A stretch of 51,066 nucleotides of DNA from positions 1-51,066 of the IMG/VR virus record IMGVR_UViG_3300032116_000298. One strand, written 5' to 3'. This document shows positions 1 through 20,111 of the stretch, in pieces. A model generated the notes under the pieces. That model did not search any database. It was not told the origin of the DNA and worked only from the letters and a program-made list of their open reading frames with translations. The position numbers and the translations under genes were made by a program. The first letter of the stretch is position 1. Each line of letters starts with the position of its first letter. This stretch comes from a virus.

Positions 1-1396
1 GCGGTGCCCACACTTTACCTGATGCAAACAAATCCGCAACTGAGTTAAGCCGCGATATCTTGTCCTGCCCTCTGCTGGGCGTGTACTCCTGAACGGGAAT
101 CCCCATCGCCCGAAACTCCTGCACAAGCGGAGCACCTGCGGCCTTCTTCTCCACGAGGAACGAATCTGGCTCCCACTCCTGCCAGTGCTCAAACGCTCTC
201 TTCTTGAGTTCAGGAAACTCAAGCCGCTCCTTGTACGAGTTCAGCAGGATGATGTTGGCGTTGCCCCTGTCCTCGTCGCTGTAGAACACACCCCATGTCG
301 AACACGCAGAGTAGTCGTTGACCTTCTTGACCTCGTGGGCCGTGTCCCATGCCTGAATGACAAACTCACACTGCGGAGGGCGTTCTGCCTCCCACCAGCG
401 CCACCACTCCCGCTTGACGATGGCGTTTGTGTCCGAGGTAGGCTGCTGCTGGTACTGCGCCATCCATTTGCCGGTGGGCAACTCCTCACGCAGGGCCAAC
501 AACTCTTTGAGGCTCCAGAACTCAGGCCACAGCGGCTTGTTGTCGTCAAACAGAGCCGGAAATTCGATGACTTTCCACTCCTCACCACCCCTCTGAGCGG
601 CTGCCTTGAGCACCTGAGCGGTCAAATCACGCAGTGACCACCGAGTCATCACGATCACGATGGCTCCACCCGGCTGAAGACGCTGCCGGGGACCGGATGT
701 GTACCACTCATACACCTTGTCGTACACCTCTGGGTTGTACGCGCCGATGGAAGCCTCTTGTTCTGAGTGCGGATCGTCGATGATGAGCAAGTCCGCGCCT
801 TTTCCGGTCACTGCGCCGCCCACACCGATGGCGAAATAGTCACCACCGAAGTTGGTGTTCCACCTTCCTGCCGCTGCGGAGTCCGTTTGCAGCCCCACAT
901 GGGGAAAAATCCGTGCATATGCCTCAGAATCGACCAGATTTCGCACTTTTCGACCGAAACCCACCGCCAACTCGGCTGTATGGCTGGTCTGAATGACCTT
1001 TTTGTGCGGAAATTTGCCCAAAAACCACGCCGGGAGCAGATATGAGGCAAATTCTGACTTGGTATGCCGGGGTGGCATGTTGATGATCAGGCGTTTGACC
1101 TCTCCACTGGCCACTTCTTCAAACGCTTTAGCCATTCTGGCATGGTGCCGACCCCCAATGAACGTCGGCCAAGCCTCTTTTACGAAGGCCATGAAGTCTT
1201 CTTGAGCCGTTTCACGCATTGTGCGGGTGCGTAGCTCCTCCAAAATCTCCGAAACTGCCTCCTGCTCGTCCCTTGGGAAGCGTTTGACCAGCGCCAACAA
1301 CTGCTCCGGAGTGAGCAACCGCACTCTTTCCCGCATCTGCGGGTTTTCAAACAACTGCTTGAGTGAATCAGATGCTGGCTTCATCCCCATCCTCAT
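1..1396 (-). CDS. terL: Terminase large subunit (partial, C-terminus outside window)
   Basis: ATP-driven DNA packaging motor and headful/end nuclease. About 465 codons are present and the frame is still open at the left edge. Visible motifs are a Walker A-like PPRHTKSE near residues 108-115, a Walker B LLIIDDPH near 203-210 and QAWDTAHE near 348-355, whose Asp fits the first acidic residue of the RuvC-like nuclease domain. Three in-frame ATGs lie at 1396, 1390 and 1384; 1396 is chosen because GGGGAG lies 4 nt upstream, but 1384 is possible. The start overlaps the upstream small-terminase gene, implying translational coupling. The gp17-like family assignment rests on motif pattern and neighbour. 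Confidence 0.95.
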   Translation of the reverse strand, partial: MRMGMKPASDSLKQLFENPQMRERVRLLTPEQLLALVKRFPRDEQEAVSEILEELRTRTMRETAQEDFMAFVKEAWPTFIGGRHHARMAKAFEEVASGEVKRLIINMPPRHTKSEFASYLLPAWFLGKFPHKKVIQTSHTAELAVGFGRKVRNLVDSEAYARIFPHVGLQTDSAAAGRWNTNFGGDYFAIGVGGAVTGKGADLLIIDDPHSEQEASIGAYNPEVYDKVYEWYTSGPRQRLQPGGAIVIVMTRWSLRDLTAQVLKAAAQRGGEEWKVIEFPALFDDNKPLWPEFWSLKELLALREELPTGKWMAQYQQQPTSDTNAIVKREWWRWWEAERPPQCEFVIQAWDTAHEVKKVNDYSACSTWGVFYSDEDRGNANIILLNSYKERLEFPELKKRAFEHWQEWEPDSFLVEKKAAGAPLVQEFRAMGIPVQEYTPSRGQDKISRLNSVADLFASGKVWAP

Positions 1397-2018
1397 CAAG
1401 CTCCCCACCTACAAGCCCCAACTCCTCGTCCACATTGATCACCTGCACCGCTGGTGCTGCTGGCAGTGGGTCGTAGTTAAGAGAGACCGCCTCCTTGGCG
1501 TCCACATCAATGATGTCAGACAGGTATGAAGAGAGCTTACTGGCCAGATCAGCCTCCAACTCCTCCGTGGTGCGGTGTGTGACGTTGATGTCGATGCGCT
1601 CTGTGAAGGCACCCACATCCGAGAGCTTGCCCAGCATCTCCAGTGCCTTGAGTTCGATCTTGGCATTGCCACTATTGGAGAGTTCCAAGTACTTGAGCTT
1701 GATGTAATTGCGTAGCTGCTGTGCGTTGCGCACCACATCAAAGTCGTACTCGTTGAGCAGAGCAGAAAGAATGAGGGCTTTGGCAGGTGTGTTGATTGCC
1801 TGCGGAGGCACGGCAGGGCTGTCCATGAATACAGCCCGGGCATCTTTGCGGTCAGCTTCTGTGACCTCTACATCATCGAGCCCGTTCGCCCGCAAAAACT
1901 CGACGGTATTGAACGCACGTTGCGCACGTTCACGGATGTCCATGATTTCATCTGCCGACCAATCAAACGGTGGTGGCACATCCAACTCTGGCGTAACGAG
2001 GATCATTTCATCAGTCAT
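1368..2018 (-). CDS. terS: Putative terminase small subunit
   Basis: 216 aa, predicted to recognise phage DNA for packaging. The assignment rests on position (immediately before and overlapping the large subunit), size, and a central helical segment LKALEMLGKLSDVGAF followed by an acidic C-terminus, a pattern I know from phage small terminases. The ATG at 2018 (MTDEMILVTPEL) is preferred. A TTG at 2057 would add 13 residues and neither start has a strong Shine-Dalgarno. No catalytic motif is expected. An unrelated DNA-binding protein in the same position cannot be excluded. Confidence 0.75.
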   Translation of the reverse strand: MTDEMILVTPELDVPPPFDWSADEIMDIRERAQRAFNTVEFLRANGLDDVEVTEADRKDARAVFMDSPAVPPQAINTPAKALILSALLNEYDFDVVRNAQQLRNYIKLKYLELSNSGNAKIELKALEMLGKLSDVGAFTERIDINVTHRTTEELEADLASKLSSYLSDIIDVDAKEAVSLNYDPLPAAPAVQVINVDEELGLVGGELDEDGDEASI

Positions 2019-2493
2019 AGCACCGCTGGATACGGGAATATGCGGAATGTAACACAAGGAGGTTGGGACTCCAATAGGGGGGGTGTTTCTGGATGGAAAT
2101 CTACGTGAGTAGTACAGGATAAATAAAGGGGGTACCCCCCATAAGATGTTTTTACGTAAACTTTTGTAGGTTTTGGTGGCAACGGTGGCTTATAGCTCCG
2201 TAACAACGTAAGATGTTTTGGTATGTGTTATCTACACCGTTAGAAGCTCGCTTTGTGTAGGTGAAGCAAGTGAGTCTTTGGAGTGGGGATGGGATGTGCA
2301 GAATAGAGTAGCACAAGCCACTGATGGTACCTAACCCATAAAGCGGGGGGTGGGGAGGGCTTACCCTTTCGTACGGTACGAAACAATGCTATCCCGTGCA
2401 AAGATGTTATAGATAGGGCATAATCCATCTCATGGATCGGGACTAGTGCAATCGGTTCATATTCCATTAACGCACTACTGAAAGGGTTCTATC
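2019..2493. other. Divergent non-coding control region
   Basis: No convincing gene on either strand. This separates the leftward terminase genes from a rightward gene. It holds a perfect 12-bp palindrome GGGGGTACCCCC (2128-2139), three copies of AAGATGTT (near 2143, 2209 and 2402) and one TTTCGTAC-type palindrome at 2367-2383. I looked for sigma70 promoters on both strands and found none near consensus; CATAAT at 2419-2424 is the best -10-like match for the rightward gene but lacks a -35. Confidence 0.6.
2367..2383. promoter_or_regulatory. 17-bp palindrome, copy 1 (centre G)
   Basis: TTTCGTACGGTACGAAA, perfectly symmetric around the central base. It lies 110 bp upstream of the gene at 2494. 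First of nine copies confined to 2367-9035; operator or RNA-hairpin function is inferred. Confidence 0.85.
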
Positions 2494-3009
2494 ATGTCCA
2501 AACAAATTGATCTGTCTCAAATTGCCAATGCTGTCGGTGTTGCATTGGGTGGTCTCAAGAAAGCAGAGACCACAGCGGGTTTGCTGAAAGAGACAATGAA
2601 TAAATACATTGCCCAACTGCACAGCGCCAAGGCCAAGGTCGGCATGTACAAGAAAGATAAAACGGGATGCGCGATTGCAACATCGTTTGTTGACGGTTGC
2701 ATCGAGGGCGGTCTGTCTCACGACACGGCACATAAAACGTATCTGCCAACCTTCAAGAAAGCGGTTGCAGACGGCAAGCCGATTGGCGATTGGAACGGTC
2801 AGCGATCCAAGGGCAATAGCAAAGCAAAAGGCAAAGGCAAGTCTGAATTGTCCGAATTACTGGTAAAGGCATTTAACCATGATGAGGGCAAATCATTCGA
2901 AGCACTTTGCCAGAGTGTCGAAAAGGGGTTCTATGCCGATGCGACATTCAAGACTATCTATGCAGGGTTTGTAGACTATCTGCAATCCGAAGGGTATGAA
3001 ATCAAGTAA
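2494..3009 (+). CDS. Hypothetical early protein with own terminator
   Basis: 171 aa, lysine-rich, no recognised domain. The N-terminal half (LSQIANAVGVALGGLKKAET onwards) looks helical, a basic Gly/Lys/Ser linker (GNSKAKGKGK) lies near residues 107-116, and the C-terminus is a second helical part. The basic linker suggests nucleic-acid contact, but that is inference. Start supported by AAAGGG about 9 nt upstream. It stands alone as a single-gene unit: control region and palindrome upstream, strong intrinsic terminator downstream. That suggests separate, perhaps immediate-early, expression. I have a vague memory of similar phage proteins of unknown function. Confidence 0.85.
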   Translation: MSKQIDLSQIANAVGVALGGLKKAETTAGLLKETMNKYIAQLHSAKAKVGMYKKDKTGCAIATSFVDGCIEGGLSHDTAHKTYLPTFKKAVADGKPIGDWNGQRSKGNSKAKGKGKSELSELLVKAFNHDEGKSFEALCQSVEKGFYADATFKTIYAGFVDYLQSEGYEIK

Positions 3010-3023
3010 TACCTAAGACCTCT

Positions 3024-3052
3024 AAGCCCCGCTTCGGCGGGGCTTTTTTTTT
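3024..3052 (+). terminator. Strong rho-independent terminator
   Basis: Stem GCCCCGC (3026-3032), UUCG tetraloop (3033-3036), GCGGGGC (3037-3043), then nine T (3044-3052). It starts about 15 nt after the stop of the 2494 gene and isolates that gene from the repeat region. Confidence 0.95.
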
Positions 3053-3118
3053 GCCCAAAATTTTTGATACCAGTTCCCTCCCCGTTGGCCGTGCTGTGTG
3101 GGCCGCAATACGTAGTAG

Positions 3119-3135
3119 TTTCGTACCGTACGAAA
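3119..3135. promoter_or_regulatory. 17-bp palindrome, copy 2 (centre C)
   Basis: TTTCGTACCGTACGAAA inside the repeat block, between the first family A repeat and the first family B repeat. Confidence 0.85.
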
Positions 3136-3147
3136 CCCCACCAAATT

Positions 3148-3340
3148 ATGCTACAGACCATACTACTTGACACTTTTGAGACCTGTTCCCTCCCCGTTGG
3201 CCGTCGATCAGAGCCGTTATCACTAGACATAACCAGCTTACGCTACAGAGTATACTACTATCACCATCTTATGCTACAGAGCATACTCCTTGTTTCGTAC
3301 AGTACGAAAGCGTACGTAGTTGCGCTACAGAGCATACTAG
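3148..3340. repeat. Four imperfect iteron-like repeats (family B)
   Basis: Core GCTACAGAGCATACTA at about 3148-3167, 3241-3259, 3271-3290 and 3323-3340, each with one or a few changes. The form ATGCT-ACAG-AGCAT is itself a short dyad. Unequal spacing (about 92, 31 and 51 bp) excludes a CRISPR array and is compatible with iterons or operator sites. Confidence 0.8.
3293..3309. promoter_or_regulatory. 17-bp palindrome, copy 3 (centre A)
   Basis: TTTCGTACAGTACGAAA between the third and fourth family B repeats, followed at once by another short GTAC-containing dyad (CGTACG). Confidence 0.85.
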
Positions 3341-3407
3341 TTATTCCACCCATCACTGAGTGGACAAAGATACCTGTTCCCTCCCCGTTGGCCGTGCTGG
3401 TTTTAAC

Positions 3408-3424
3408 TTTCGTACAGTACGAAA
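3408..3424. promoter_or_regulatory. 17-bp palindrome, copy 4 (centre A)
   Basis: TTTCGTACAGTACGAAA just after the third family A repeat, at the right end of the repeat block. Confidence 0.85.
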
Positions 3425-3701
3425 ATGCGTCAAGCTGATGCAAAGCAGTGTTTTATCCAAAACTGCTGCAACCTTCCCGTAATAAGAAGAATTCAAAACC
3501 CAATGAAATCAAGCACTTGCAGTGGGAAATCCTCCTTTCTTTCTTTTATTCTCTAAAAATAATATATACACCCCCTACATTCTTCACACTCTTACCCTTC
3601 ATAGGAAAAACATCTTTATGCGTGTGTAAAAACTCTGTTTTTTCTCGCTCTCTTGGGCTCTGGCGCAAATTCCCCAAAAATCCGGGAATAAAGGAACTTT
3701 A
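3425..3701. other. AT-rich non-coding stretch beside the repeats
   Basis: No supportable gene. It contains a dyad with arms AGCAG (3444-3448) and CTGCT (3463-3467) plus TTTT/AAAA inside. From about 3531 a pyrimidine-rich then AT-rich tract follows, including TAAAAATAATATATAC near 3555-3570. Iteron-like repeats next to AT-rich DNA resemble a replication origin; this is inference only. Confidence 0.5.
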
Positions 3702-3710
3702 TGGTATACT
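3702..3710 (+). promoter_or_regulatory. Extended -10 promoter candidate
   Basis: TGGTATACT gives an extended -10 (TGn plus TATACT). No good -35, as is usual for this class. Predicted start near 3717 would give a leader of about 75 nt to the TTG-started gene at 3792. Confidence 0.6.
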
Positions 3711-3717
3711 TACCCTC

Positions 3718-3766
3718 GCCAGCCCGCATGGTTGCTGGCTTCCAAATTATTCCCGTCGGTGGAATA
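3718..3766 (+). promoter_or_regulatory. Two hairpins in the 5' leader of the 3792 gene
   Basis: Stem GCCAGC (3718-3723) with GCTGGC (3734-3739), then TATTCC (3748-3753) with GGAATA (3761-3766). The first begins essentially at the predicted transcript start; the second ends 14 nt before the GGAGG ribosome-binding site. A role in mRNA stability or translation control is inferred. Confidence 0.5.
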
Positions 3767-3791
3767 TTGCAGCATAAAATGGAGGTTTCAC

Positions 3792-4316
3792 TTGTCTGTA
3801 TCCACTAAGCTCACACCGCGCCAACGCGCAATCGTCCTACTCTCCCTCGGAGTGACGAAAGCCAAGGGCATCAAGCCCTACGTATCCACACCCAAACGCA
3901 GTAAAGATAAGCCCGCACCCAAGGCAACCCGTGGCATTCCCATCCGCTGCATCACCACAGGCGAGATATTCCCATCCATCACCGCCGCCGCACATGCCCA
4001 CCGAGTTCACCCACCCCATCTGTCCGATCACCTCAAAGGCCGGGGATATTCGGTTGGGGGTCGAACCTACGAGCTCCTCAGCCCAGAAGAAGTACCACCC
4101 GGCCTTGTCCCCACTAAATTTCACAAGACCACTCCCCGGGCAGTACGGTGCATTGATGACGGGAAGGAGTTCCGCTCAATCGCAGCCTGTGCCAAACACT
4201 ACGGGATCGCCGTTGGCAATCTCAAGCTCCACCTTGACGGGTTGTACAGAGGCTTGAACAACCACAGGTTTGAATGGGTTGAACCCCCCAATAATCAACC
4301 TAAATCCAACCAGTAA
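3792..4316 (+). CDS. Putative DNA-binding protein with two NUMOD1/IENR1-like repeats
   Basis: 174 aa if started at TTG 3792, which is placed 6 nt after a full GGAGG (3781-3785); the longer upstream frame lacks an RBS. Two homologous modules are visible: IRCITTGEIFPSITAAAHAH and onward, and VRCIDDGKEFRSIAACAKHY and onward. Each has the pattern 'C-I-(T/D)-x-G-x-x-F-x-S-I-x-A-A-A' followed by a histidine-rich helix, as in helix-turn-helix repeats attached to homing endonucleases. No GIY-YIG or HNH nuclease motif is present, so it may have become a free DNA-binding regulator. The N-terminus (TPRQRAIVLLSLGVTKAKG) is helical, then basic. It lies directly before the main early promoter. Confidence 0.8.
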   Translation: MSVSTKLTPRQRAIVLLSLGVTKAKGIKPYVSTPKRSKDKPAPKATRGIPIRCITTGEIFPSITAAAHAHRVHPPHLSDHLKGRGYSVGGRTYELLSPEEVPPGLVPTKFHKTTPRAVRCIDDGKEFRSIAACAKHYGIAVGNLKLHLDGLYRGLNNHRFEWVEPPNNQPKSNQ

Positions 4317-4320
4317 CAAC

Positions 4321-4349
4321 TTGACAAGATGATATAAGTGTGTTACACT
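4321..4349 (+). promoter_or_regulatory. Consensus sigma70 promoter of the early operon
   Basis: TTGACA (4321-4326), 17-nt spacer, TACACT (4344-4349); predicted start about 4356. It begins 5 nt after the previous gene's stop codon and reads into the structured leader and the early operon. Confidence 0.85.
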
Positions 4350-4363
4350 AACCTCTGGTTAGT
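4347..4363. promoter_or_regulatory. Operator-like dyad over the transcription start
   Basis: ACTAACCTCTGGTTAGT: perfect 7-bp arms around TCT, covering the end of the -10 element and the predicted +1. This position suits a repressor site. The half-site GTTAGT also occurs twice, 9 bp apart, after the promoter at 6909. The binding protein is unknown. Confidence 0.65.
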
Positions 4364-4383
4364 TGAAATATGGAATGCGGGAC

Positions 4384-4400
4384 TTTCGTACAGTACGAAA
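4384..4400. promoter_or_regulatory. 17-bp palindrome, copy 5 (centre A)
   Basis: TTTCGTACAGTACGAAA, starting about 28 nt downstream of the predicted start of the 4321 promoter, just before the boxA and structured leader. Confidence 0.85.
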
Positions 4401-4427
4401 GCCGGGGAGATCGAACCCCACACCCGC

Positions 4428-4440
4428 TGCTCTTTAAAAA
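4428..4440 (+). promoter_or_regulatory. boxA-type antitermination element
   Basis: TGCTCTTTAAAAA closely matches the E. coli rrn boxA (TGCTCTTTAACAA), the NusB/S10 loading site. It lies about 75 nt after the predicted start of the 4321 promoter, the usual position for a rrn or lambda nut-type leader. It would let polymerase cross the structured leader and the roughly 23-kb operon. No phage N-like antiterminator was identified. Confidence 0.65.
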
Positions 4441-4974
4441 CACGCAAGGCAATCACACAGCCAACATCTTTACGGGTGTTGTGTGTGGCAACCACACCGC
4501 CGCTGCCTACATGGCAGAAGCCAGACAGATGACAGCACAGGACAAGAACAACAACGGCCAGTGCAGAGACTCTCCCTCGGTGAATAGGCGTCCCGTAGCC
4601 AGTCGGGTGCATGCATGGTGTAGTAAGTAGTGAACCCTGCGGTTCCGAACGCGATAGTGCAGGCAAAGTGCAATACATGGTGCATGGTGATAAACCACCT
4701 GCACCGACCCACCTAACTGCGTGGAGTGCTCTGCTGGGAGACCGGCAACAAACCTAACGGGGGGAAGTGTGCGAAGCCAAAGGCGACACCCTCCAAGACC
4801 ACTGAACCAGAACGAGCGCAAGTGAGTGCTGCCCGCAGCAATGCGGGGGAAACACCTGGGATATGCAGATGGTGACACACGCTATCGTGGGACAAGACCA
4901 AACAACAGTAGGAAACAACAACTTATAGGGGGCTGGGCGACCAGCCTTCTATGCGGTGCGGTGTCCTGCACTCA

Positions 4975-4991
4975 GTTCGTACGGTACGAAA
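4975..4991. promoter_or_regulatory. 17-bp palindrome, copy 6 (centre G, one mismatch)
   Basis: GTTCGTACGGTACGAAA: 15-bp perfect core, left outermost T replaced by G. It lies 26 nt upstream of the 5017 start codon. Confidence 0.8.
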
Positions 4992-5016
4992 CTGTTTTAT
5001 ATGAAAGGGAATTGAA

Positions 5017-5358
5017 ATGCCAAAGACAGCCAACTACAACTGCCGCAGCTACGTGGAGAAATGCCAACCGTTTGTGGCCTCACACATGTGGGGCGAGTGG
5101 TGCAATGGCCGATACATGGTGTTCAGTTACGGCACACACTGGCCGCTGTTCATCTACGAGCAGGCCACGGACACGTGGTACGCCAACCGGGACAAGTACA
5201 GCCAGTCCACCAGCAGGCACTACAGCCAAGCCAACCCGAGCACGTACAACCCAGAGATCAAACTCGTGCCGCTGTCCGTGCATGACATGAAAGCCGTGGT
5301 GCGTGGTGGCTCGGTCGGGCTGATCGAAGCAGCCAACGAGCGGATGGAGACTGTGTGA
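5017..5358 (+). CDS. Hypothetical protein, first gene of the early operon
   Basis: 113 aa, rich in aromatic residues and Asn/Ser/Tyr (WGEWCNGRYMVFSYGTHWPL near residues 25-44). This gives the look of a small compact beta domain; no known family recognised. AAAGGGA precedes the ATG by 7-8 nt. It follows the structured leader and palindrome copy 6, and copy 7 begins right after its stop, so it may be expressed differently from its downstream neighbours. Confidence 0.85.
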   Translation: MPKTANYNCRSYVEKCQPFVASHMWGEWCNGRYMVFSYGTHWPLFIYEQATDTWYANRDKYSQSTSRHYSQANPSTYNPEIKLVPLSVHDMKAVVRGGSVGLIEAANERMETV

Positions 5359-5359
5359 G

Positions 5360-5376
5360 TTTCGTACAGTACGAAA
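5360..5376. promoter_or_regulatory. 17-bp palindrome, copy 7 (centre A)
   Basis: TTTCGTACAGTACGAAA whose last bases run into the GGAG ribosome-binding site of the gene at 5387. As RNA it can fold as UUUCGU-ACAGU-ACGAAA directly against that site. Confidence 0.85.
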
Positions 5377-5386
5377 GGAGAAAGAT

Positions 5387-5617
5387 ATGAATGAGTGGTA
5401 CGAATGCGTACGCTGCGGTGATGACATACATGTCACCCGCTGGCGACTCGGGGAACGCTACCATGTGTGTCTGGCCTGCGGCGAGAAGGCCGCACGGGCC
5501 GAGCGCAAAGGCTGGACGGTGGTGCAGGAGTATCAAAAAGGCGGCTACATGTTCGTCACTGCTGCCTCTGCACTCAACACACTGAAACAAACTAATCAGA
5601 AGGCGGTGAGGACATGA
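5387..5617 (+). CDS. Small zinc-ribbon-like protein
   Basis: 76 aa. Two CxxC pairs (CVRC at residues 7-10 and CLAC near 28-31), separated by about 17 residues, suggest one structural zinc site. The rest (GYMFVTAASALNTLKQ) shows no known domain. GGAG of the RBS abuts palindrome copy 7. The stop overlaps the next start (ATGA). Possible regulator or adaptor of a host enzyme; function unknown. Confidence 0.85.
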   Translation: MNEWYECVRCGDDIHVTRWRLGERYHVCLACGEKAARAERKGWTVVQEYQKGGYMFVTAASALNTLKQTNQKAVRT

Positions 5618-5973
5618 AGATCAAGACAAGTGAACTGACAGGGGCCGCGCTTGATTGGGCGGTGGCTGAAGCCGATGGAACCCCCATCTACCGCAGTGGC
5701 AAGACGATGACCCGTATGGACATGGACGGGAATGTTTACTGGCAACCCTCAACCGACTGGGCACACGGTGGCCCGATCATTGAGCGGGAGGAAATCAGTA
5801 CAAGCCGTGAGTTTGCATCAAGCCGTGTTGAATGGGCGGCATGGACACCTGCGCCCATCCGTGACGACGCTGAAGCATTTGGCTACGGCCCCACACCCCT
5901 GATCGCAGCCATGCGCTGCTACGTTGCATCCAAACTGGGTGATGAAGTAGAGATTCCGGAGGAACTGAAATGA
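5614..5973 (+). CDS. DUF2591-like phage protein
   Basis: 119 aa. The sequence has the signature I associate with DUF2591: KTSELTGAALDWAVA at the start, STDWAHGGPIIERE in the middle, and YGPTPLIAAMRCYVASKLGD near the end. Members are common in phages and prophages of Proteobacteria; no function is established. It overlaps both neighbours by 4 nt, so it is translated in a coupled chain. Confidence 0.9.
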   Translation: MKIKTSELTGAALDWAVAEADGTPIYRSGKTMTRMDMDGNVYWQPSTDWAHGGPIIEREEISTSREFASSRVEWAAWTPAPIRDDAEAFGYGPTPLIAAMRCYVASKLGDEVEIPEELK

Positions 5974-6224
5974 CTGAGATGCACGAGAGCAATGAGATGT
6001 TCCAAGCGTTTGTGGGCAAGACCGTGGCCCGGGTGGACTACGTGGACGACTACGACGAGGGCATCACCGTGATCTTCACGGACGGATCAATCCTCAATGT
6101 GTCTGAGCGTATGCAGGCTGGGCAGATCGAAGTGTGTGCCGTTGTTACGGAGCAGGGCGACGACTGGGCCGAGCGCATGGCCGATGAGCACGACAAGGTG
6201 AAACAACTTAATGATGGAGAGTGA
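5970..6224 (+). CDS. Hypothetical acidic protein
   Basis: 84 aa, strongly acidic. The segment VGKTVARVDYVDDYDEGITV then IFTDGSILNVSE resembles a short beta sheet. No domain recognised. Starts inside the previous stop (ATGA). Confidence 0.8.
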   Translation: MTEMHESNEMFQAFVGKTVARVDYVDDYDEGITVIFTDGSILNVSERMQAGQIEVCAVVTEQGDDWAERMADEHDKVKQLNDGE

Positions 6225-6227
6225 ACT

Positions 6228-6428
6228 ATGAAACGACCCGACAACATCCATGACGCACTGCGGCACCTGCACGACCTGACGATGGCAATCGCCAACGACA
6301 TGAACAACTACATGGATAACCCACAAGACCACAAGCCTGAGTACTTTGAGGCTGTCCATGCGGCTGCGCTTGACGCACACCTGCTGGTGACTTGGATCAG
6401 AGACAACCTTGCGGAGATGCAGAAATGA
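6228..6428 (+). CDS. Hypothetical small helical protein
   Basis: 66 aa, predicted all-helical, histidine- and asparagine-rich (ALRHLHDLTMAIANDMNNYM). GGAG lies upstream across the previous stop. No family recognised. Its stop overlaps the next start. Confidence 0.8.
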   Translation: MKRPDNIHDALRHLHDLTMAIANDMNNYMDNPQDHKPEYFEAVHAAALDAHLLVTWIRDNLAEMQK

Positions 6429-6673
6429 AACAAAAGAGCGTGTGGTGCGTACGCGGCACCTTGATCAACTACGAGGATGAGAACGAAACAATTTTTGAGG
6501 CGTACTTCACCGACAGGGACACGGCTCACGCTGTGTATCACAAGGGTGAGCGTGAGTACGGGATGGCCGTTGGCTACACCAAGATGCGTTGGTCATTGGA
6601 GGGGTTCTACCTCGACGACGACCCGCATATCGACCAGATGTTTGAAGACGTACGCGAAGCAATGGAGGAATGA
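6425..6673 (+). CDS. Hypothetical protein
   Basis: 82 aa from the ATG that overlaps the previous stop. Contains GTLINYEDENETIFEAYFTD and an acidic C-terminus (DDDPHIDQMFEDVREAMEE). No known domain. It belongs to the same string of coupled small accessory genes. Confidence 0.8.
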   Translation: MKQKSVWCVRGTLINYEDENETIFEAYFTDRDTAHAVYHKGEREYGMAVGYTKMRWSLEGFYLDDDPHIDQMFEDVREAMEE

Positions 6674-6675
6674 CC

Positions 6676-6912
6676 ATGAAACAACCAGAGGACAACAAGA
6701 CCTTGGACATGTACGGCGATGTGAAAGATATTGTGGCGAAATGGCGCCCCACCCCTGCATCGAAACGCTACTGTTTCTACATCGCCCTGTCTGATGGCAC
6801 CGAGGTGCAGTGGACGGGCCTGTCCATCGCACAAGCCAAAGACATGAACGCCGCGACTCGCAAGAACACACCAGCCAACGTGGTGAGATATGGATGGGAG
6901 GCTATACCTTGA
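6676..6912 (+). CDS. Hypothetical protein
   Basis: 78 aa. The ATG at 6676 is chosen over 6670 because GGAGG (6664-6668) is 7 nt away. It contains KRYCFYIALSDGTEVQWTGL, beta-like, then a helix. Function unknown. The -35 of the next promoter overlaps its last codons. Confidence 0.75.
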   Translation: MKQPEDNKTLDMYGDVKDIVAKWRPTPASKRYCFYIALSDGTEVQWTGLSIAQAKDMNAATRKNTPANVVRYGWEAIP

Positions 6913-6937
6913 CCCAGTGAGTAATGTCTGTTACAAT
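6909..6937 (+). promoter_or_regulatory. Second strong sigma70 promoter
   Basis: TTGACC (6909-6914), 17-nt spacer, TACAAT (6932-6937), predicted start about 6944. Downstream lie two GTTAGT half-sites (6947-6952, 6956-6961) and palindrome copy 8, a layout parallel to the 4321 promoter. It would drive the AAA/VWA triad and later genes. Confidence 0.75.
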
Positions 6938-6975
6938 GTAGTTCGTGTTAGTAGTGTTAGTTAAGTTAAACGCTG

Positions 6976-6992
6976 TTTCGTACAGTACGAAA
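6976..6992. promoter_or_regulatory. 17-bp palindrome, copy 8 (centre A)
   Basis: TTTCGTACAGTACGAAA about 32 nt after the predicted start of the 6909 promoter, running straight into the GGAAA ribosome-binding site of the gene at 7002. Confidence 0.85.
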
Positions 6993-7001
6993 GGAAATCA
7001 A

Positions 7002-7883
7002 ATGTCTGCAATTGAAGTGAGCAAACTGTCGGGCTCTGCCCTCATCGTCAACCTGAACCTGTCCGTGTGGACGGCGCGTAAGCTGGACCGCCGGGTGTCT
7101 GAGGAGGTGGACCAAGCCAAGAGCACCAAGACCCGTGCCGGTAACTACCACAAGAACCTGCTGGCCGGTAGCGGCAAGCTGGAGCAGATCAACAAGCTGG
7201 CCGGGGCCATCCGCACGTGGCATTACACCTTTACACAACCTTGGTCTGACAGTGGCGACCGAGTGCTGCCTATGACTATGTTTGTGGATTACCGTGCCCG
7301 TCTCACGGACTACGAGACCCAGTTCGGCACTGCGGTCAATGACTTCCTCAATGAGTACGACACGCTGGTGGCCGCCGCTGCGTTCCAGTTGGGCGACCTG
7401 TTTAACCGTGAGGACTACCCGCTGCGTGAGGACATCGTTGGCAAGTTCGGGTTCCGGTACGCCTTCAGCCCACTGCCTGTATCGGGTGACTTCCGGGTGG
7501 ATATCAACGAGCAGGGCCTGACCGAGCTTCGTACCCACTACGAGGGTGTCATGGCCGAGCGCACCACCACCATGATGAAGGATGCATGGGACCGCCTGTA
7601 TGACGTACTGTCCCGTATGTCTGAGCGCCTGACCGATGACACGGACAGCAAGGGGGAGTCCAAGCGCCGCATCTTCCGTGACTCTCTGGTGGACAACGCA
7701 ATTGATGTGTGCAAACTGCTCAAGCACTTCAACACCACCGGGGACACGCGGCTTGAGGCCATGCGCCAGCAGCTTGAGGATGCCATGCGTGGTGTGGATG
7801 CCCAATCCCTGCGTGACAGCGATGTGCTGCGTGAGCAGACCAAGAACAAGGTGGACGCCTTGCTCGATAAGTTTTCGTTCTGA
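7002..7883 (+). CDS. DUF3150-like protein (triad member 1)
   Basis: 293 aa, mostly helical. The start (KLSGSALIVNLNLSVWTARK), the basic stretch after it and the helix-rich C-terminal half fit the phage DUF3150 family as I remember it. That family is regularly encoded next to a MoxR-type AAA ATPase and a VWA-metallopeptidase protein, which is the order here. No catalytic residues can be named. Start set by GGAAA after palindrome copy 8. It probably works with the next two products as a complex of unknown target. Confidence 0.8.
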   Translation: MSAIEVSKLSGSALIVNLNLSVWTARKLDRRVSEEVDQAKSTKTRAGNYHKNLLAGSGKLEQINKLAGAIRTWHYTFTQPWSDSGDRVLPMTMFVDYRARLTDYETQFGTAVNDFLNEYDTLVAAAAFQLGDLFNREDYPLREDIVGKFGFRYAFSPLPVSGDFRVDINEQGLTELRTHYEGVMAERTTTMMKDAWDRLYDVLSRMSERLTDDTDSKGESKRRIFRDSLVDNAIDVCKLLKHFNTTGDTRLEAMRQQLEDAMRGVDAQSLRDSDVLREQTKNKVDALLDKFSF

Positions 7884-7928
7884 TGTGTAAGTGTGTTTGT
7901 GTTTGTTATTAACTGAAAGGAAATCATC

Positions 7929-9014
7929 ATGTCTATGTTCAAAAATCTGTCCCTCCAGCAAACCGCTGACCTGATCGCCGCAGTGGGCGATGTGCAGACC
8001 ATCCTCGCGCAAGGTGAGATGGGTATTGGCAAGTCCTCCATCCTCAAGATGCTCAAGGACAAGCCCGAGTTCAAGGACCACAAGTTCTGTTATGTGGACA
8101 TCACCACCAAAGATGTTGGTGACTTCGTTGTGCCCAAGATCAGGACGGTCGATGGGGTCGAGGTGTGCAGCTTCATCCCCAATGAAGAGTTCGGCATGCA
8201 CTTCGTTGACCAGCCTGTGGTGATCATGCTCGATGAGTTGGGCAAGGCCAAGGGCGGTGTGATGAATGCCTGCCTGCGCCTGATGCAGGAGCGCCAGCTT
8301 GGCACGTACACGCTGCACTCCAAGTCGGTTGTGTTTGCGACCACTAACCTTGCGGTTGAGGGTATCGGTGACAACGTGCCGCCCCATGCACGTAACCGTG
8401 TGACCCAGGTGCGTGTGGCCAAGCCCAGCGCCGAGGAGTGGATGACCTATGCGATATCAAGGGGCGTCAACCATACCGTCATTGCCACGGTGCGTGAGTA
8501 CCCGGACATGCTGGCGTCCTTTGAGGACTACGAGACCCCGCAGCAGAACGCCTACATCTTCGACCCCAGGGATGTGCGGCTGTCGTTTGTCACGCCCCGT
8601 TCGCTGGAGAAGGCTGGTCATATCGTTGACCGCACGGCCATCTTGGGCAAGGATGTCATGGCCCATGCACTCAAGGGTACGGTCGGTGAGAAGGCAATGC
8701 TCAACATCTTGACGATGGTGGACCTTGACAGCCAGCTCGCTGACTGGGATGAGATCATCAAGTCCCCAACAACTGCGGTTGTGCCAAACAACGGCGCTGC
8801 CTCCTGCATGCTGGTGTCCAAGGCTGTGCAGCGTATCCGCAAGGAGACGGTCAGTGCGTGGATGGAGTTCCTGCCCCGCCTGTCCAAAGAGGCGCAGGGT
8901 TTGTTTGCCCGTAGCGTCATGATCCCGCAGTGCCCCACCCGTGAGGTGGCTGCGACGAACCCCAAGTTCGCGCAGTGGGCTGCCGCCAACAACTACATGT
9001 TTGCCCGTAAGTAA
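7929..9014 (+). CDS. MoxR/CobS-like AAA+ ATPase (triad member 2)
   Basis: 361 aa. Walker A GEMGIGKSS (residues 29-37), Walker B VVIMLDELGK (97-106, Asp102 and Glu103), sensor-1 VVFATTN (134-140) and an arginine-finger region HARNRV are all present. MoxR-type ATPases act as chaperones that remodel or load a metal centre in a partner carrying a VWA domain. The next gene encodes such a partner. It is likely an active hexameric ATPase; the phage-specific substrate is unknown. AAAGGAAA precedes the ATG. Confidence 0.93.
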   Translation: MSMFKNLSLQQTADLIAAVGDVQTILAQGEMGIGKSSILKMLKDKPEFKDHKFCYVDITTKDVGDFVVPKIRTVDGVEVCSFIPNEEFGMHFVDQPVVIMLDELGKAKGGVMNACLRLMQERQLGTYTLHSKSVVFATTNLAVEGIGDNVPPHARNRVTQVRVAKPSAEEWMTYAISRGVNHTVIATVREYPDMLASFEDYETPQQNAYIFDPRDVRLSFVTPRSLEKAGHIVDRTAILGKDVMAHALKGTVGEKAMLNILTMVDLDSQLADWDEIIKSPTTAVVPNNGAASCMLVSKAVQRIRKETVSAWMEFLPRLSKEAQGLFARSVMIPQCPTREVAATNPKFAQWAAANNYMFARK

Positions 9015-9018
9015 TCGG

Positions 9019-9035
9019 TTTCGTACAGTACGAAA
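9019..9035. promoter_or_regulatory. 17-bp palindrome, copy 9 (centre A)
   Basis: TTTCGTACAGTACGAAA in the 31-nt gap before the 9046 gene, fused to its GGAG ribosome-binding site exactly as in copy 7. No promoter is visible upstream, which favours a role at the RNA or translation level here. Confidence 0.85.
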
Positions 9036-9045
9036 GGAGATTGAG

Positions 9046-10236
9046 ATGTTTATCACACAGATGAATCAGATGACTGCGCTTCAGCGCATCGAGCGTGCTC
9101 ACGTTGAGTTGATGTCCCACAAAGATACGATGGAGTATGCGGGCGTCATCATGGTGGGCAAATACAAGGTGGATGCCTCGGTACCCACTGCCTGCACCAA
9201 CGGCATCGACTGTATCTACGGCAAGGCGTTCATTGAGTCGCTCAGTGAGTCTGACCTGCGTGGCCTGATCATGCACGAGAACCTGCACAAGGCGTTCCAG
9301 CATACGTTCTTGTGGAAGCATCTGTATGAGCAGAACCGCCGCGCTGCCAACATGGCATGCGACTACGTGATCAACCTGATCATTGCGGATATCAGCCGGG
9401 ACTCCGGTGGGTTCGTCACTCTGCCCAAGCAGGGCCTGCTGGACGAGCGGTTCCGTGGCATGGACTCTCAGGAGGTGTTCAACATCTTGATGGACGAGCA
9501 GGACGAGGACGATGGTGATGGGGACGGTGAGGGTGAGGGTGAAGGTGGTGGCCTTGATGACCACGACTGGACCAGCGGTGAGCAGTTGCCTGAGGAGGCG
9601 CAGGAGCAGATACGCAAGGAGATCGACCAAGCCCTGCGCCAGGGCCAGATACTGGCAGGCAAGATGGGCGGGCGTCAGACCCGTGAGTTGGGCGAGTTGC
9701 TGGAGCCCAAGGTGCGGTGGCAAGATCAGTTGCGTGAGTTCCTCTCAAGCCTTGCTGATGGTAAAGATATCTCCACGTGGCAGCGCGTCAATCGCCGGTG
9801 GTTGCAGCACGACATGTATATGCCCTCTACCCTGTCCGAGAGCATGGGACGTATCGTGGTGGGCGTGGACACATCGGGCTCCATCGGTGGGCGTGAGCTT
9901 CAGGAGTTCCTCTCCGAGGTCAAGGCCATCTGCGATAACGTCAAGCCCGAGATGCTCGACCTGATGTACTGGGACACCGATGTGGCAGCGCATGAGGTGT
10001 ATGGCCGTGATGATCTGGGCAAGATGATTGGCAGCACCAAGCCAGCAGGCGGTGGCGGCACGGACGCAGCGTGTGTACCTGACTACATCAAGGCACGTGG
10101 CATCAAGCCCGAGTGCGTGGTCATGCTCACCGATGGCTACGTGGCATCGTGGGGCAAGTGGCAGCAGCCTGTGCTGTGGTGTGTGGTGGGTGGCAATAAG
10201 AACAACGCGCCTGTGGGTCAGACCATCCACATCTGA
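9046..10236 (+). CDS. VWA-domain putative metallopeptidase (triad member 3)
   Basis: 396 aa. An HExxH zinc-binding motif HENLH occupies residues 77-81. A long acidic Gly/Asp/Glu linker follows near 150-170, then a von Willebrand A domain with the MIDAS motif DTSGS near residue 275 and GGGGT further on. This is the DUF2201-type architecture (metallopeptidase-like plus VWA), also comparable to CobT/CoxE partners of MoxR ATPases. The protein probably docks on the 7929 ATPase through the MIDAS. Whether it cleaves peptides or is a chelatase-like scaffold is not known. Confidence 0.92.
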   Translation: MFITQMNQMTALQRIERAHVELMSHKDTMEYAGVIMVGKYKVDASVPTACTNGIDCIYGKAFIESLSESDLRGLIMHENLHKAFQHTFLWKHLYEQNRRAANMACDYVINLIIADISRDSGGFVTLPKQGLLDERFRGMDSQEVFNILMDEQDEDDGDGDGEGEGEGGGLDDHDWTSGEQLPEEAQEQIRKEIDQALRQGQILAGKMGGRQTRELGELLEPKVRWQDQLREFLSSLADGKDISTWQRVNRRWLQHDMYMPSTLSESMGRIVVGVDTSGSIGGRELQEFLSEVKAICDNVKPEMLDLMYWDTDVAAHEVYGRDDLGKMIGSTKPAGGGGTDAACVPDYIKARGIKPECVVMLTDGYVASWGKWQQPVLWCVVGGNKNNAPVGQTIHI

Positions 10237-17531: not shown

Positions 17532-19393
17532 ACATCCTTACGGTCGATTTTGAGACCTACTACACCAGCACCGATCTGGGCTTCAAGAAACAGACCACGG
17601 AGGAGTACGTCCGTGATCCACGCTTTGAAGTGATCGGTGTGTCGGTGCAGGTAGATGGTGGCTGGCCCGAGTGGTTTAGCGGCACAAAGGAAGCCACCAA
17701 AGAGTGGCTGCTGCAATTCGACTGGGCCAACAGCATGGCGCTGGCACACAACGCCCTGTTCGATATGGCAATCCTTAACTGGCACTACGGCATTCGCCCC
17801 AAGGCGATTGCTGATACGTTGAGCATGGCACGGGCCATACACGGCACTGAGGTTGGCAACAGCCTCGCCAAGCTGGCCGATTACTACAAGCTGGGGGTCA
17901 AGGGCACAGAGGTGGTGAGCGCGATTGACCTGAAGCGGGAAGATTTTCCTCCCGCAAAGCTGAGAGCGTACGCCGAGTATTGCCGCAATGACGTAGCGCT
18001 GACCTATGACTTGTTCCTGCACCTACTGCCCAAGCTCACACGCGGTGAGCTCAAGCTCATCGACCTGACCATCAGGATGTTTACAGAGCCTGTGTTGACG
18101 CTGGACAAGCCGTTGCTGCAAGCGCATCTTGCTGATGTACGTGAGCGCAAGGCCAAGCTGATGGAGGCTGCCGGGGCCAACCTTGATGACCTCATGTCCA
18201 ACCAGAAGTTTGCAGAACTGCTGCGCGGGTTTGGCGTCGAGCCACCAACAAAGATCAGCCCGACAACGGGCGAGTTAACGTTGGCGATGGCCAAGAGCGA
18301 TGAAGGGTTCAAGGCGCTGGCCGAGCACCCTGATGAGCGGGTGCAGGTGCTTGTGGCTGCGCGTCTGGGCAACAAGACCACACTGGAGGAGACCCGGACC
18401 GAGCGGCTGCTGGGTATCGCGGATCGAGGAGTGATACCTGTTCCTCTCTCCTACTACGCCGCCCACACGGGACGGTGGGGTGGGGCCGACAAGCTCAACT
18501 TCCAGAACTTCCCCAGCCGGGGTGAGAACGCAGGCAAGCTCAAACGGGCCATCCTTGCGCCTGAGGGTCACGTGATGATCGACTGTGATTCGTCGCAGAT
18601 TGAGGCCCGGGTGCTAGCATGGTTTGCGGGGCAGGATGATCTGGTGGAGGTGTTTGAGAACAACAACGCTGAGATTGCCGCAGGGGTCAAGAAGAAGGAC
18701 ATGAAGTATGACCCGTACAAGCTCATGGCCTCAGCCATCTACGGCAAGGGCGTGGAGAACATCACTGACCCCGAGCGGTTCGTGGGCAAGACCACCATTC
18801 TGGGCAGCGGGTACGGCATGGGCAGCGCCAAGTTCAAGGCGCAGCTTAAGACGTTTGAGGTTGAGATTTCGGACGACGAGTCCGCCCGCATCATCAACAC
18901 ATACCGTGAAACATATCCGTGGATACCGGCGCTATGGAAGGCGGGCTCCGCCGCCATTGAAGCCATGTCCAAGGGCAAGACCGCCAAGTGGGGACGCAAG
19001 GGCATCATTGACATCCAGAAGGAAGGCATCCTCATGCCCAACGGGCTGCACCAGCGGTACCCCAACCTGCGAAAAGTCAAAGACAAAGACGGCAAAGAGC
19101 AGTATATTTATGACTCCCGCAAAGGGCCGGTCAAGCTCTACGGGGGCAAGTTGACAGAGAACATCTGTCAGGGATTGGCACGTTGCATCATCGGTGAGCA
19201 GATGCTGCGCATTGCCAAACGGTACAAGGTGGTGCTCACCGTTCACGATGCCGTGGCGTGTATTGCACCCGAGGCAGAGGTTGAAGAGGCGATGGCGTAT
19301 GTCATGGAGTGCATGCGCTTTGTGCCCGAGTGGGCGCAGGGCATACCACTGAACTGTGAGGCTGGATACGGGAGGAGTTATGGCGACTGCTGA
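17528..19393 (+). CDS. polA: Family A DNA polymerase with 3'-5' exonuclease
   Basis: 621 aa replicative polymerase. The exonuclease domain shows ExoI DFET (residues 7-10), ExoII HNALFD and ExoIII YCRNDVALTYD. The polymerase domain shows motif A DSSQIEARVLAW, motif B R-x3-K-x7-YG (RFVGKTTILGSGYG, about 18776-18817) and motif C VLTVHDAV. Aligned to E. coli Pol I, the residue at position 762 is Leu rather than Phe or Tyr, and motif C has HDA instead of HDE. There is no 5'-3' exonuclease domain. Start overlaps the previous stop. Confidence 0.96.
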   Translation: MNILTVDFETYYTSTDLGFKKQTTEEYVRDPRFEVIGVSVQVDGGWPEWFSGTKEATKEWLLQFDWANSMALAHNALFDMAILNWHYGIRPKAIADTLSMARAIHGTEVGNSLAKLADYYKLGVKGTEVVSAIDLKREDFPPAKLRAYAEYCRNDVALTYDLFLHLLPKLTRGELKLIDLTIRMFTEPVLTLDKPLLQAHLADVRERKAKLMEAAGANLDDLMSNQKFAELLRGFGVEPPTKISPTTGELTLAMAKSDEGFKALAEHPDERVQVLVAARLGNKTTLEETRTERLLGIADRGVIPVPLSYYAAHTGRWGGADKLNFQNFPSRGENAGKLKRAILAPEGHVMIDCDSSQIEARVLAWFAGQDDLVEVFENNNAEIAAGVKKKDMKYDPYKLMASAIYGKGVENITDPERFVGKTTILGSGYGMGSAKFKAQLKTFEVEISDDESARIINTYRETYPWIPALWKAGSAAIEAMSKGKTAKWGRKGIIDIQKEGILMPNGLHQRYPNLRKVKDKDGKEQYIYDSRKGPVKLYGGKLTENICQGLARCIIGEQMLRIAKRYKVVLTVHDAVACIAPEAEVEEAMAYVMECMRFVPEWAQGIPLNCEAGYGRSYGDC

Positions 19394-20111
19394 CCCCCGA
19401 AGGGGCAAGGTGTTGAAGGGAAAGACACTCCCCTACGGTACGCTCACCATGAGCGAAGGAGACAGTGTGATCAGGCACGCCTATTACTATTACGGCTACC
19501 GCCACGACGAAGACATGCCCCCACTGCCACACATTGAGCCTGATGAGCAGGTGGTGGACCCAGAAGAAGAGTTGTGGGAGAAAGAAAAACAGGCATACAT
19601 TAAAGACCTGCTGGATGGGTTGACCCCCCGGGAGGCCAAGATACTGCGTATGCGGTTCGGGATTGAGTTAGATCATGATATGTCTCTTGAAGAAGTAGGC
19701 AGCACGTTTGATGTATCCCGTGAGCGCATACGACAGATTGAAGCCAAGGCGATCCGCAAACTCAAGCACCCGGACCGAAAACTGCGAGAGGTTATTTACC
19801 CAGAGATCAGCTTCTACTGGAAGAAGCAAAGCGAAGCCAGACTGCGTGAACGCATGTTTGAGATTGAGATGACACAGATGGGGTGGGCTTGGTACCAGCG
19901 GCAGTTAGATGGGCGTATCTCCTTCATCAAACACCCCAAAGCCAATTCATGGATTGAGCACATCAAATTAACTAACCCAAACCTTCACAGGCGAATTGAA
20001 TATGAAGTCAACCGATACCTCAATGACATCTTCACTAATCGACTACGCACACCCGTGCATGATGGCCGAGAACGCTCTGAAAGAGGCGCACAAGCACATG
20101 CTAAACCGTGA
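19380..20111 (+). CDS. Stand-alone sigma70 region-4 protein
   Basis: 243 aa. Residues about 74-133 reproduce sigma70 region 4: GLTPREAKILRMRFGI, then SLEEVGSTFDVSRERIRQIE (HTH, 102-121) and AKAIRKLKHPDR. I see no region 2 or 3, so it cannot melt a promoter alone. It might bind the beta flap and redirect or block host RNA polymerase at -35 elements. The C-terminal 110 residues are charged and unrecognised. GGAGGAG lies just before the ATG; the start overlaps the polymerase gene. Confidence 0.9.
   Translation: MATADPRRGKVLKGKTLPYGTLTMSEGDSVIRHAYYYYGYRHDEDMPPLPHIEPDEQVVDPEEELWEKEKQAYIKDLLDGLTPREAKILRMRFGIELDHDMSLEEVGSTFDVSRERIRQIEAKAIRKLKHPDRKLREVIYPEISFYWKKQSEARLRERMFEIEMTQMGWAWYQRQLDGRISFIKHPKANSWIEHIKLTNPNLHRRIEYEVNRYLNDIFTNRLRTPVHDGRERSERGAQAHAKP

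Follow-up and report, generated by a model that had tools for sequence, protein, structure and literature searches.

The stretch examined here (the window) comprises positions 1 to 51,066 of a single 51-kb virus record, IMG/VR record IMGVR_UViG_3300032116_000298, in which genes run rightward from gene 2494 on and the virion genes run leftward. Nine copies of a 17-bp palindrome, TTTCGTACNGTACGAAA, lie immediately before and beyond gene 2494 (Table 1), and we describe here this palindrome, its counterparts in related phages, and the product of gene 2494 as its likely partner. The rightward genes include the weakly DUF3150-like gene 7002, the ATPase gene 7929 and the DUF2201/VWA-like gene 9046, as well as genes for a DNA polymerase, an exonuclease, a helicase, small helix-turn-helix (HTH) proteins and a DUF927 primase/helicase-like protein. 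We take the conserved leftward frame 1368-2057, whose product has no family match, and its left neighbour for terminase genes, from their position only. Because the virion and terminase-side genes are directed leftward and the early genes rightward, the first palindrome sits in a divergent gap; the eight remaining copies lie among the first rightward genes, presumably early ones.

Table 1 Features of the early region of the window.
Feature	Position	Strand	Remarks
Operator copy 1	2367..2383		Gap between leftward gene 1368-2057 and first rightward gene; centre about -56 from putative 2494 promoter
Operator copy 2	3119..3135		Motif scan
Operator copy 3	3293..3309		Motif scan
Operator copy 4	3408..3424		Motif scan
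Operator copy 5	4384..4400		Centre about +36 from start of 4321 promoter
Operator copy 6	4975..4991		One outer mismatch; 25 nt before ATG of gene 5017
Operator copy 7	5360..5376		Between genes 5017 and 5387; overlaps ribosome-binding site
Operator copy 8	6976..6992		Centre about +40 from 6909 promoter; just before gene 7002; best conserved position tested
Operator copy 9	9019..9035		Between ATPase gene (7929-9014) and DUF2201/VWA-like gene (9046-10236); overlaps ribosome-binding site
Gene 2494	2494..3009	+	First rightward gene, 171 aa; proposed operator-binding repressor
Type-determining segment, codons 74-106 (T82, Q103, R104)	2713..2811	+	Overlaps predicted helix-turn-helix (helices 60-71, 76-93)
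Putative 2494 promoter GTGCAA-17 nt-CATAAT	2396..2424	+	Weak -35, good -10; by eye, missed by promoter scan
Intrinsic terminator-like site	3024..3055	+	After gene 2494; 9-pair stem, T run
Sigma-70-like early promoter TTGACA-17-TACACT	4321..4349	+	Promoter scan, 10 of 12 matches
Sigma-70-like early promoter TTGACC-17-TACAAT	6909..6937	+	Promoter scan, 10 of 12 matches

Repeated palindrome in the early region

A rescan of the window reproduced the nine positions given in the initial annotation, with eight exact copies and one outer mismatch, and the variation it had described at the central base (on the plus strand A at six sites, G at two and C at one). No further copy with up to three mismatches was present in the 51,066 bases, and 100 dinucleotide shuffles scanned with the same tolerance held a mean of 0.06 copies and at most one, compared with the nine observed. 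The copies at 5360, 6976 and 9019 merge into the Shine-Dalgarno-like sequences GAAAGGAG or GAAAGGAA, as had been noted, and both of the sigma-70 promoters said to lie just upstream of a copy were recovered. Two of the original generalizations stood for the window and less well for its relatives. By our reading of the genes by eye, without a gene caller, all nine copies are intergenic, while some conserved copies in relatives seem, on a rough count, to fall inside reading frames: among the records compared, 210 of 266 sites lie outside supported frames, which make up 73% of the site-bearing stretch, and this count uses the longest start and thus overstates coding sites, flagging even the window sites 4384, 6976 and 9019. 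Likewise, none of the nine core sites of the window lies to the right of 9040, whereas two relatives have an extra copy near polA-side genes (G003 at 66348, G004 at 39702).

Distribution among viral and host genomes

An exact 17-bp scan of viral contigs returned 32 stretches from 21 records. Eighteen of these records share proteins with the window; the other three (G011, L024 and L036) share none, carry one site each, and were dropped as probable chance matches. In the distinct relatives, the polymerase is 70-79% and the helicase 80-82% identical to that of the window where present, and a related record may hold up to 16 copies. In a scan of host genomes (one genome per species, 84,980 species) only 13 contigs were found; 12 of them hold one site each, and the other, which is 9 kb long, phage-like and binned with an alphaproteobacterium, carries seven. 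By our own arithmetic, base counts alone would predict about 60. As relatives share the repeated motif and hosts show it at or below the level of chance, it belongs to this phage group, and the early-gene linkage first proposed withstands the comparison with hosts. A host regulator as the reader of the motif is disfavoured on the same grounds. The linkage extends to individual genes, since a site lies within 130 nt upstream of the p7002 homolog in 29 of 29 oriented records, and sites precede the homologs of p5017 (18/23), p5387 (7/22), the ATPase (18/28) and the VWA-like gene (19/26). Neither of the two outcomes named at first as refuting the motif was observed.

Several records were treated separately in these and the following counts. 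The near-copies G002, G008, G012, G020 and L018 were excluded from the coding-site, promoter-spacing and gene-upstream analyses and from the tree of the 1368-2057 protein; the column test described below excluded G002, G012, G020 and L018 and kept G008, which is identical to the window there. Record G024, with one site and typed 'G?', was outside the column test, the own-type site count and the coding-site, promoter-spacing and gene-upstream analyses, and its locus L290 is in the upstream-palindrome count. Of the relatives of the 24938 product 80 of 93 were kept, and in a further record set 10 of 27 matched (G044, G046 and G047 had no match). Six untyped records of 22-27 kb (G031, G032, G033, G036, G040, G045) have a 24938 homolog and neither a repeated palindrome nor a 2494 homolog, and were left out of counts. 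A literature search on the motif or family, which covers open-licence papers and so does not prove it unpublished, gave none among the papers listed; one phage-genome paper (PMC5968390) has the string only within a table of CRISPR-like repeats.

Palindrome types across phages

The palindrome of the window defines what we call type G. In 20 records, near-duplicates included, this type has 139 exact copies of the 15-bp core TTCGTAC-N-GTACGAA and not one copy with a single mismatch. Once near-copies were removed, 93 sites remained, in which the outer bases favour R-S before and S-Y after the core, a symmetric preference, and the left and right flanks vary independently; together these properties give the picture of two protein subunits on two half-sites. 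Homologs of gene 2494 led to a second type, A, with the site TTTCATACNGTATGAAA (half-site TTCATAC), to type C, TTCCCAC-N-GTGGGAA, and to the further types TTCATAT-N-ATATGAA and TTCCTAC-N-GTAGGAA, so that all five share the frame TTCnnA[C/T]-N-[G/A]TnnGAA. The 42 records typed G, A or C contain 302 exact own-type sites, and one-mismatch copies number zero in G, five in A and zero in C. Sites within a contig agree: with all five types counted, only G037 of the 42 typed records holds two, and the only two of the 65 typed homolog loci to do so (L298 and L311) both come from G037.

The type can differ between genomes at one and the same place. The sites upstream of the p7002 homolog in the 29 records are G in 11, A in 13, C in four and ATAT in G037, and homologous places carrying different types were seen for G, A, C and one ATAT. 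One position with different types in different phages implies that sites were rewritten in place, and, together with the agreement of sites within each contig, this amounts to a natural and unusually clear series of specificity switches. Record G037 carries two 2494 homologs that differ in code, one of them preceded by an ATAT site (three copies) and the other by a CC site (six copies); its ends (59095-60129 and 1-1200) hold two versions of a single neighbourhood, which differ in operator type and in 2494 homolog, so it is probably a composite of two strains or of the assembly, a tandem duplication being the other reading, and we have withdrawn the idea of a genome with two pairs. G037 was typed C in the HTH comparison, the 26-frame column test and the 1368-2057 tree, though the homolog found there is the ATAT one. 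In G039 (107-3713), a symmetric C...G replaces the outermost T...A in five of six type-A sites, perhaps a sixth specificity.

The initial annotation had left open whether the element is a DNA operator or an RNA hairpin. That it works as a hairpin in early mRNAs, through translation control or in a nut-like manner, would fit the overlap of three copies with ribosome-binding sites, the hairpin that the palindrome forms in three of four folded stretches, and the way both arms change together between types, as in a stem; the outermost pair is C-G seven times over all types (five of them in G039) against fewer than one under independence, and two of the five type-A one-mismatch copies (G035 52005 and L214 1226) would be wobble pairs. 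However, folding is no better than in shuffles (z 0.43, -0.81, -0.66 and -1.55), and the outermost pair of the G set departs from T-A in 15 of 93 sites without ever becoming another Watson-Crick pair (two are G-T). Over all types, the 62 outermost departures comprise nine Watson-Crick pairs, two G-T and 51 that are neither, flanks -2 to -13 show no co-variation in the G set (p 0.18-0.97), and type G lacks any one-mismatch core copy. Moreover, the copy before gene 2494 lies upstream of the putative promoter of that gene, and whole-genome switches, the G039 outer pair included, are equally expected from a symmetric dimer with changed specificity. We thus consider an RNA element very improbable, and the alternative of a DNA operator is supported.

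Product of gene 2494 varies with the palindrome type

Among contigs carrying two or more distinct exact 17-bp sites, 13 of 14 of type G and 14 of 15 of type A have a homolog of gene 2494; the two that lack one, G005 and G028, are fragments beginning or ending inside the early region. We examined 66 of 68 homolog loci (the near-copies L284 and L294 were left out, and near-identical loci remain among the 66), and at 63 of them a cognate palindrome lies no more than 400 nt upstream. Its distance to the ATG was measured at 62 loci and is 123-152 nt at 55 of them. The loci encode 55 non-identical proteins; for the column ranking and triplet tests the partial L304 was left out, and L316, L319 and L346 were typed by sites elsewhere in the locus.

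A trans-acting protein that reads the sites would be expected to differ between types in its recognition residues. We compared columns in 26 frames conserved in at least five G and at least five A records (of which p185 and p767 are probably shadow frames). At residue 82 of the 2494 product, all 15 type-G sequences have T and all 13 type-A sequences have V or N, and this is the only well-sampled column in the 26 frames that is invariant in G and absent from A; ten of the frames have columns without shared residues, nearly all at highly variable positions. Across the 55 proteins, the most type-informative positions are R104, Q103, D77, A24 and T82, and each version of the triplet 82/103/104, which was picked after this ranking, is unique to one type in all 55: T-Q-R goes with GTAC, N-T-K with CCAC, N-A-Q with ATAT, N-A-R with CTAC, and nine others with ATAC. 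The residue-base chemistry is suggestive at two positions, as half-site base 7 is C:G where residue 104 is R and T:A where it is Q, and V or N replaces T82 wherever base 4 is not G.

This association does not follow descent. When columns 74-106 are left out of the tree, the types still call for 13 changes where the minimum is four, and a single clade is rejected for both G and A (approximately unbiased test, p-AU 2.2e-4 and 4.5e-5); on the tree of the 1368-2057 protein they need nine changes against a minimum of two. Types scattered in this way over the trees indicate that the recognition segment and the sites changed together many times, by substitution or by segment exchange. Consistent with this, when nearest neighbours were restricted to those less than 60% identical elsewhere, segment 74-106 predicted the type of 51.3 of the 55 proteins and the rest of the protein only 29.0. 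By this covariation, the product of gene 2494 is the likely, newly identified partner of the sites.

It was absent from the earlier list of candidate binders, none of which held up. The HTH proteins 24938 and 23778 have no column that separates G from A genomes, and their recognition helices do not differ between G, A and C; the 3732/3792 product has a homolog in only two of 22 other records (the near-copy G002, and G016), so that all three are rejected as the specificity factor, two because they ignore the type and the third because it is rare. Another phage or host protein might nonetheless read the sites, with the 2494 product as hitchhiker or cofactor, and in favour of such a reader these phages also conserve 24938 and 23778, while column 94 of p11256, thinly sampled, also separates five G from six A sequences (H in 5/5 G, never in A). 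Yet the recognition helices of the HTH proteins are constant across types, with nearly identical 24938 products in G035 (A) and G037 (C/ATAT), host genomes lack the repeated motif, and among the genes examined only 2494 combines a cognate site at a set position upstream with a segment that follows the five types. We therefore regard a different reader as quite improbable.

Predicted structure and database searches

An AlphaFold model of the 2494 product, built with 27 sequences, has a mean predicted local distance difference test (pLDDT) score of 85, with ten-residue block means of 94-98 for residues 11-100, and a predicted template modelling (pTM) score of 0.56. It predicts a long helix (7-44), two helices (60-71 and 76-93) joined by a turn of four residues, and a C-terminal part of lower certainty; the same two helices appear when the segment is modelled alone, and we call them a predicted HTH-like unit.

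No convincing relative was found in Pfam, NCBIfam, PHROGs or the PDB. The best single-member profile matches (0.0012 in PHROG, 0.0013 in NCBIfam and 0.024 in Pfam) are to unrelated or unnamed families, weak matches of this kind occurring in one to three of the 27 members. Neither the whole protein nor residues 43-108 gave a fold match at E<=0.001, and second looks reached Z 5.0 and 3.5 at best; for the tyrosine-recombinase fold in particular Foldseek gave no match at E<=0.001, although a missing match excludes nothing. The 27 members had no ParB-family match in Pfam-A at E<=0.1, and the family has no HTH_3/Cro match (the 24938 product has weak ones but ignores the motif type). Neither the window protein nor one type-C homolog, searched with tblastn against 50,697 phage records, had a match at E<=1, and profile searches found no homolog in Pseudomonas phage Rollin or in the first 50 of 60.9 kb of Rhizobium phage RHph_TM3_14A. 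The latter, a distant relative (L349), has another dispersed palindrome, GTTACC-N6-GGTAAC, in 15 copies in 50 kb (positions include 5843, 8332, 20130, 20436 and 22551), perhaps another operator system.

Promoter spacing and proposed mechanism

A scan for promoter-like sequences found eight in the window against 6.3 in shuffles. Over the 203 non-redundant sites of the group, 37 pairs place a site centre at +30 to +59 of an early-strand promoter-like sequence (at least 9 of 12 consensus matches) where 2.0 are expected from random positions, and 15 of the promoters in these pairs agree with the consensus at 12 of 12 positions. Upstream of the 2494 homologs listed, a C-T-A-T-n-n-C-G-T-G-C-like block and a -10-like box recur.

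From these observations, we infer that the palindrome is a double-stranded DNA operator to which the 2494 product would bind, probably as a dimer. Its HTH-like unit (60-93) would read the half-site TTC-nn-A[C/T] through residues around 76-104, and the protein should discriminate between duplexes, binding TTTCGTACAGTACGAAA and not TTTCATACAGTATGAAA equally well. Since many sites lie just downstream of sigma-70-like promoters, we interpret the protein as a repressor of early genes that works as a roadblock: sitting on the copies that follow strong host-type promoters at 30-59 bp, and on those between early genes, it would stop transcription and shut off the early region. The copy upstream of its own gene suggests autoregulation, and gene 2494, which ends at a terminator-like site, may be transcribed alone. 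Protein and sites would have changed specificity jointly in the various lineages, so that at least five matched types arose. As a whole, we consider this account, a repressor on palindromic operators with co-switched types, probable on the sequence comparisons, and the sign of regulation is its weakest step, binding and repression both being deduced.

The same binding could have the opposite sign, with the 2494 product activating early or middle transcription or preventing termination. Antitermination sites are also found just after promoters, and the site about 56 bp upstream of the putative start of gene 2494 occupies an activator-like place. Most promoter-linked sites, however, lie downstream of the promoter, the 15 promoters with 12 of 12 matches should need no activator, and a DNA palindrome within a transcribed stretch fits a roadblock; we thus find activation or antitermination rather unlikely.

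A number of observations weigh against the account of the 2494 product as the repressor that reads the sites, and the position of its own upstream site, equally good for activation, is one of them. Smaller excesses of site-promoter pairs occur at +105, with eight pairs where 1.1 are expected (at least in part because a promoter has a second site), and, for the opposite strand, at -75 and +135 with eight pairs each. With respect to the partner, loci L316, L319 and L346 have no palindrome within 400 nt upstream, p11256 and nine other frames (the latter at highly variable positions) also have separating columns, and typing by segment 74-106 errs or ties for three of 55 proteins even with all neighbours allowed. 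K104 pairs with CCAC even though base 7 is C as in the R104 types, which speaks against a simple one-residue-one-base code. Lastly, the protein has no known DNA-binding relative by sequence or fold, so that the term 'DNA-binding' draws on the covariation and the predicted bihelical unit.

Finally, the sites might serve replication, partition or packaging, in a manner like ParB/parS or KorB, and not transcription. Near-invariant palindromes that occur in many copies within one part of the genome recall parS sites. They also recall the OB sites of plasmid RK2 (PMC11790492). Against this, Pfam searches of 13 long records, which may be incomplete, found no ParA-type ATPase (PF13614), the 2494 family lacks ParB matches as given above, and the sites are placed with promoters and genes. 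With neither ParA nor ParB found, the ParB/KorB idea was rejected, and we hold a role of this kind to be scarcely credible.

Other features of the window

Between gene 2494 and the next early promoter lie two further repeat families, GATACC-GTTCCCTCCCCGTTGGCCGTG in three copies (3066-3096, 3178-3208 and 3369-3399) and TTATGCTACAGA-CATACT in four (3139-3169, 3231-3261, 3262-3292 and 3313-3343); GCTACAGA has up to five copies in some relatives and is absent from others. Around site 2367 (2340-2401), a G-rich block (for example GGGGGGTGGGG) precedes the palindrome and a CTATCCCGTGCAA-like block follows it, and both recur upstream of gene 2494 across the types compared, perhaps with a promoter or packaging role. 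The product of frame 19356-20111 is 251 aa long and contains a sigma-70 region 4 (Pfam E 4e-19); in the first record set it is present, besides the near-copy G008, in G006 and G007 alone. The product of 9046-10236, adjoined by the ATPase gene, receives the label HNH endonuclease from PHROG 1314, a label borne by many phage records; its Pfam matches are instead to a DUF2201 metallopeptidase and a VWA-like domain.

Implications and comparison with known systems

If the proposed pairing holds, an anonymous repeat becomes a matched protein-operator pair whose protein is unmatched in 50,697 phage records (two queries). The proposed determinants, residues 82, 103 and 104 against half-site bases 4, 5 and 7, could be probed by single swaps; T82V in the window protein, for example, would move its preference to TTTCATAC. 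The series of types makes it testable how a many-site regulator changes specificity without passing through a broken state, and it could supply several orthogonal repressor-operator pairs. Pfam searches of the 13 long records, which may be incomplete, turned up neither a tyrosine integrase (PF00589) nor a serine recombinase (PF00239). More tentatively, and with more doubt than confidence, we suggest that a repressor family with at least five specificities may form immunity groups in phages that seemingly do not lysogenize. A resident infection would then silence the early region of a superinfecting phage of its own type, and escape from such same-type silencing would drive the repeated rewriting, in place, of operators and a few recognition residues.

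The operator of lambda CI and Cro is 17 bp long, with two half-sites around one central base, and resembles this palindrome in that respect. Lambda-type systems, however, use few graded operators, whereas here up to 16 copies have an invariant core and the protein has no HTH_3/Cro match. RNA hairpin regulators would show folding beyond chance and compensatory changes, neither of which appears here apart from the whole-genome two-arm switches. The OB operator of KorB is a multi-copy palindrome with a free centre base. KorB is a repressor with operators near several target promoters, as we propose here (PMC11790492); it is a ParB-family CTPase clamp, while the 2494 family has no ParB match, and the likeness is only that of a repressor with several operators.

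Two phage systems come closer. One is SPBRE, the 15-bp element of SPbeta recognized by MrpR (YopR), which like the palindrome is repeated and intergenic and was found in silico long before its repressor (PMC10516654). MrpR, in contrast, has a tyrosine-recombinase fold and more than 300 residues and belongs to a temperate prophage, whereas the 2494 product is only 171 residues long and the fold searches gave it no match. The cluster A mycobacteriophages L5, Bxb1 and Trixie have, as here, many dispersed short sites, some of them at promoters. Most of these L5-type stoperators lie away from promoters, the sites are proposed to stop elongation, and the site motifs differ between relatives and follow the repressor (PMC6550527, PMC9283540). 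The dispersal typical of L5 is seen here too, with nine sites in the window, up to 16 in relatives and a promoter-linked peak, but within the early part only. L5 sites are 13 bp, asymmetric and oriented with transcription, as opposed to a symmetric palindrome with a 15-bp core and any centre base, and the L5 repressor is a monomer with two DNA-binding domains, to which no sequence relation was found (by tblastn of the window protein and one type-C homolog against 50,697 phage records). L5-type phages are temperate and have integration or partition genes; among the 13 long records, which may be incomplete, no integrase or ParA gene was found. L5-type stoperators are thus, together with SPBRE/MrpR, the functionally nearest systems, although the sites here are symmetric and the protein is unrelated as far as these searches go. 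What is new is a proposed matched protein-operator system without a described family, within the known class of phage repressors with dispersed operators.

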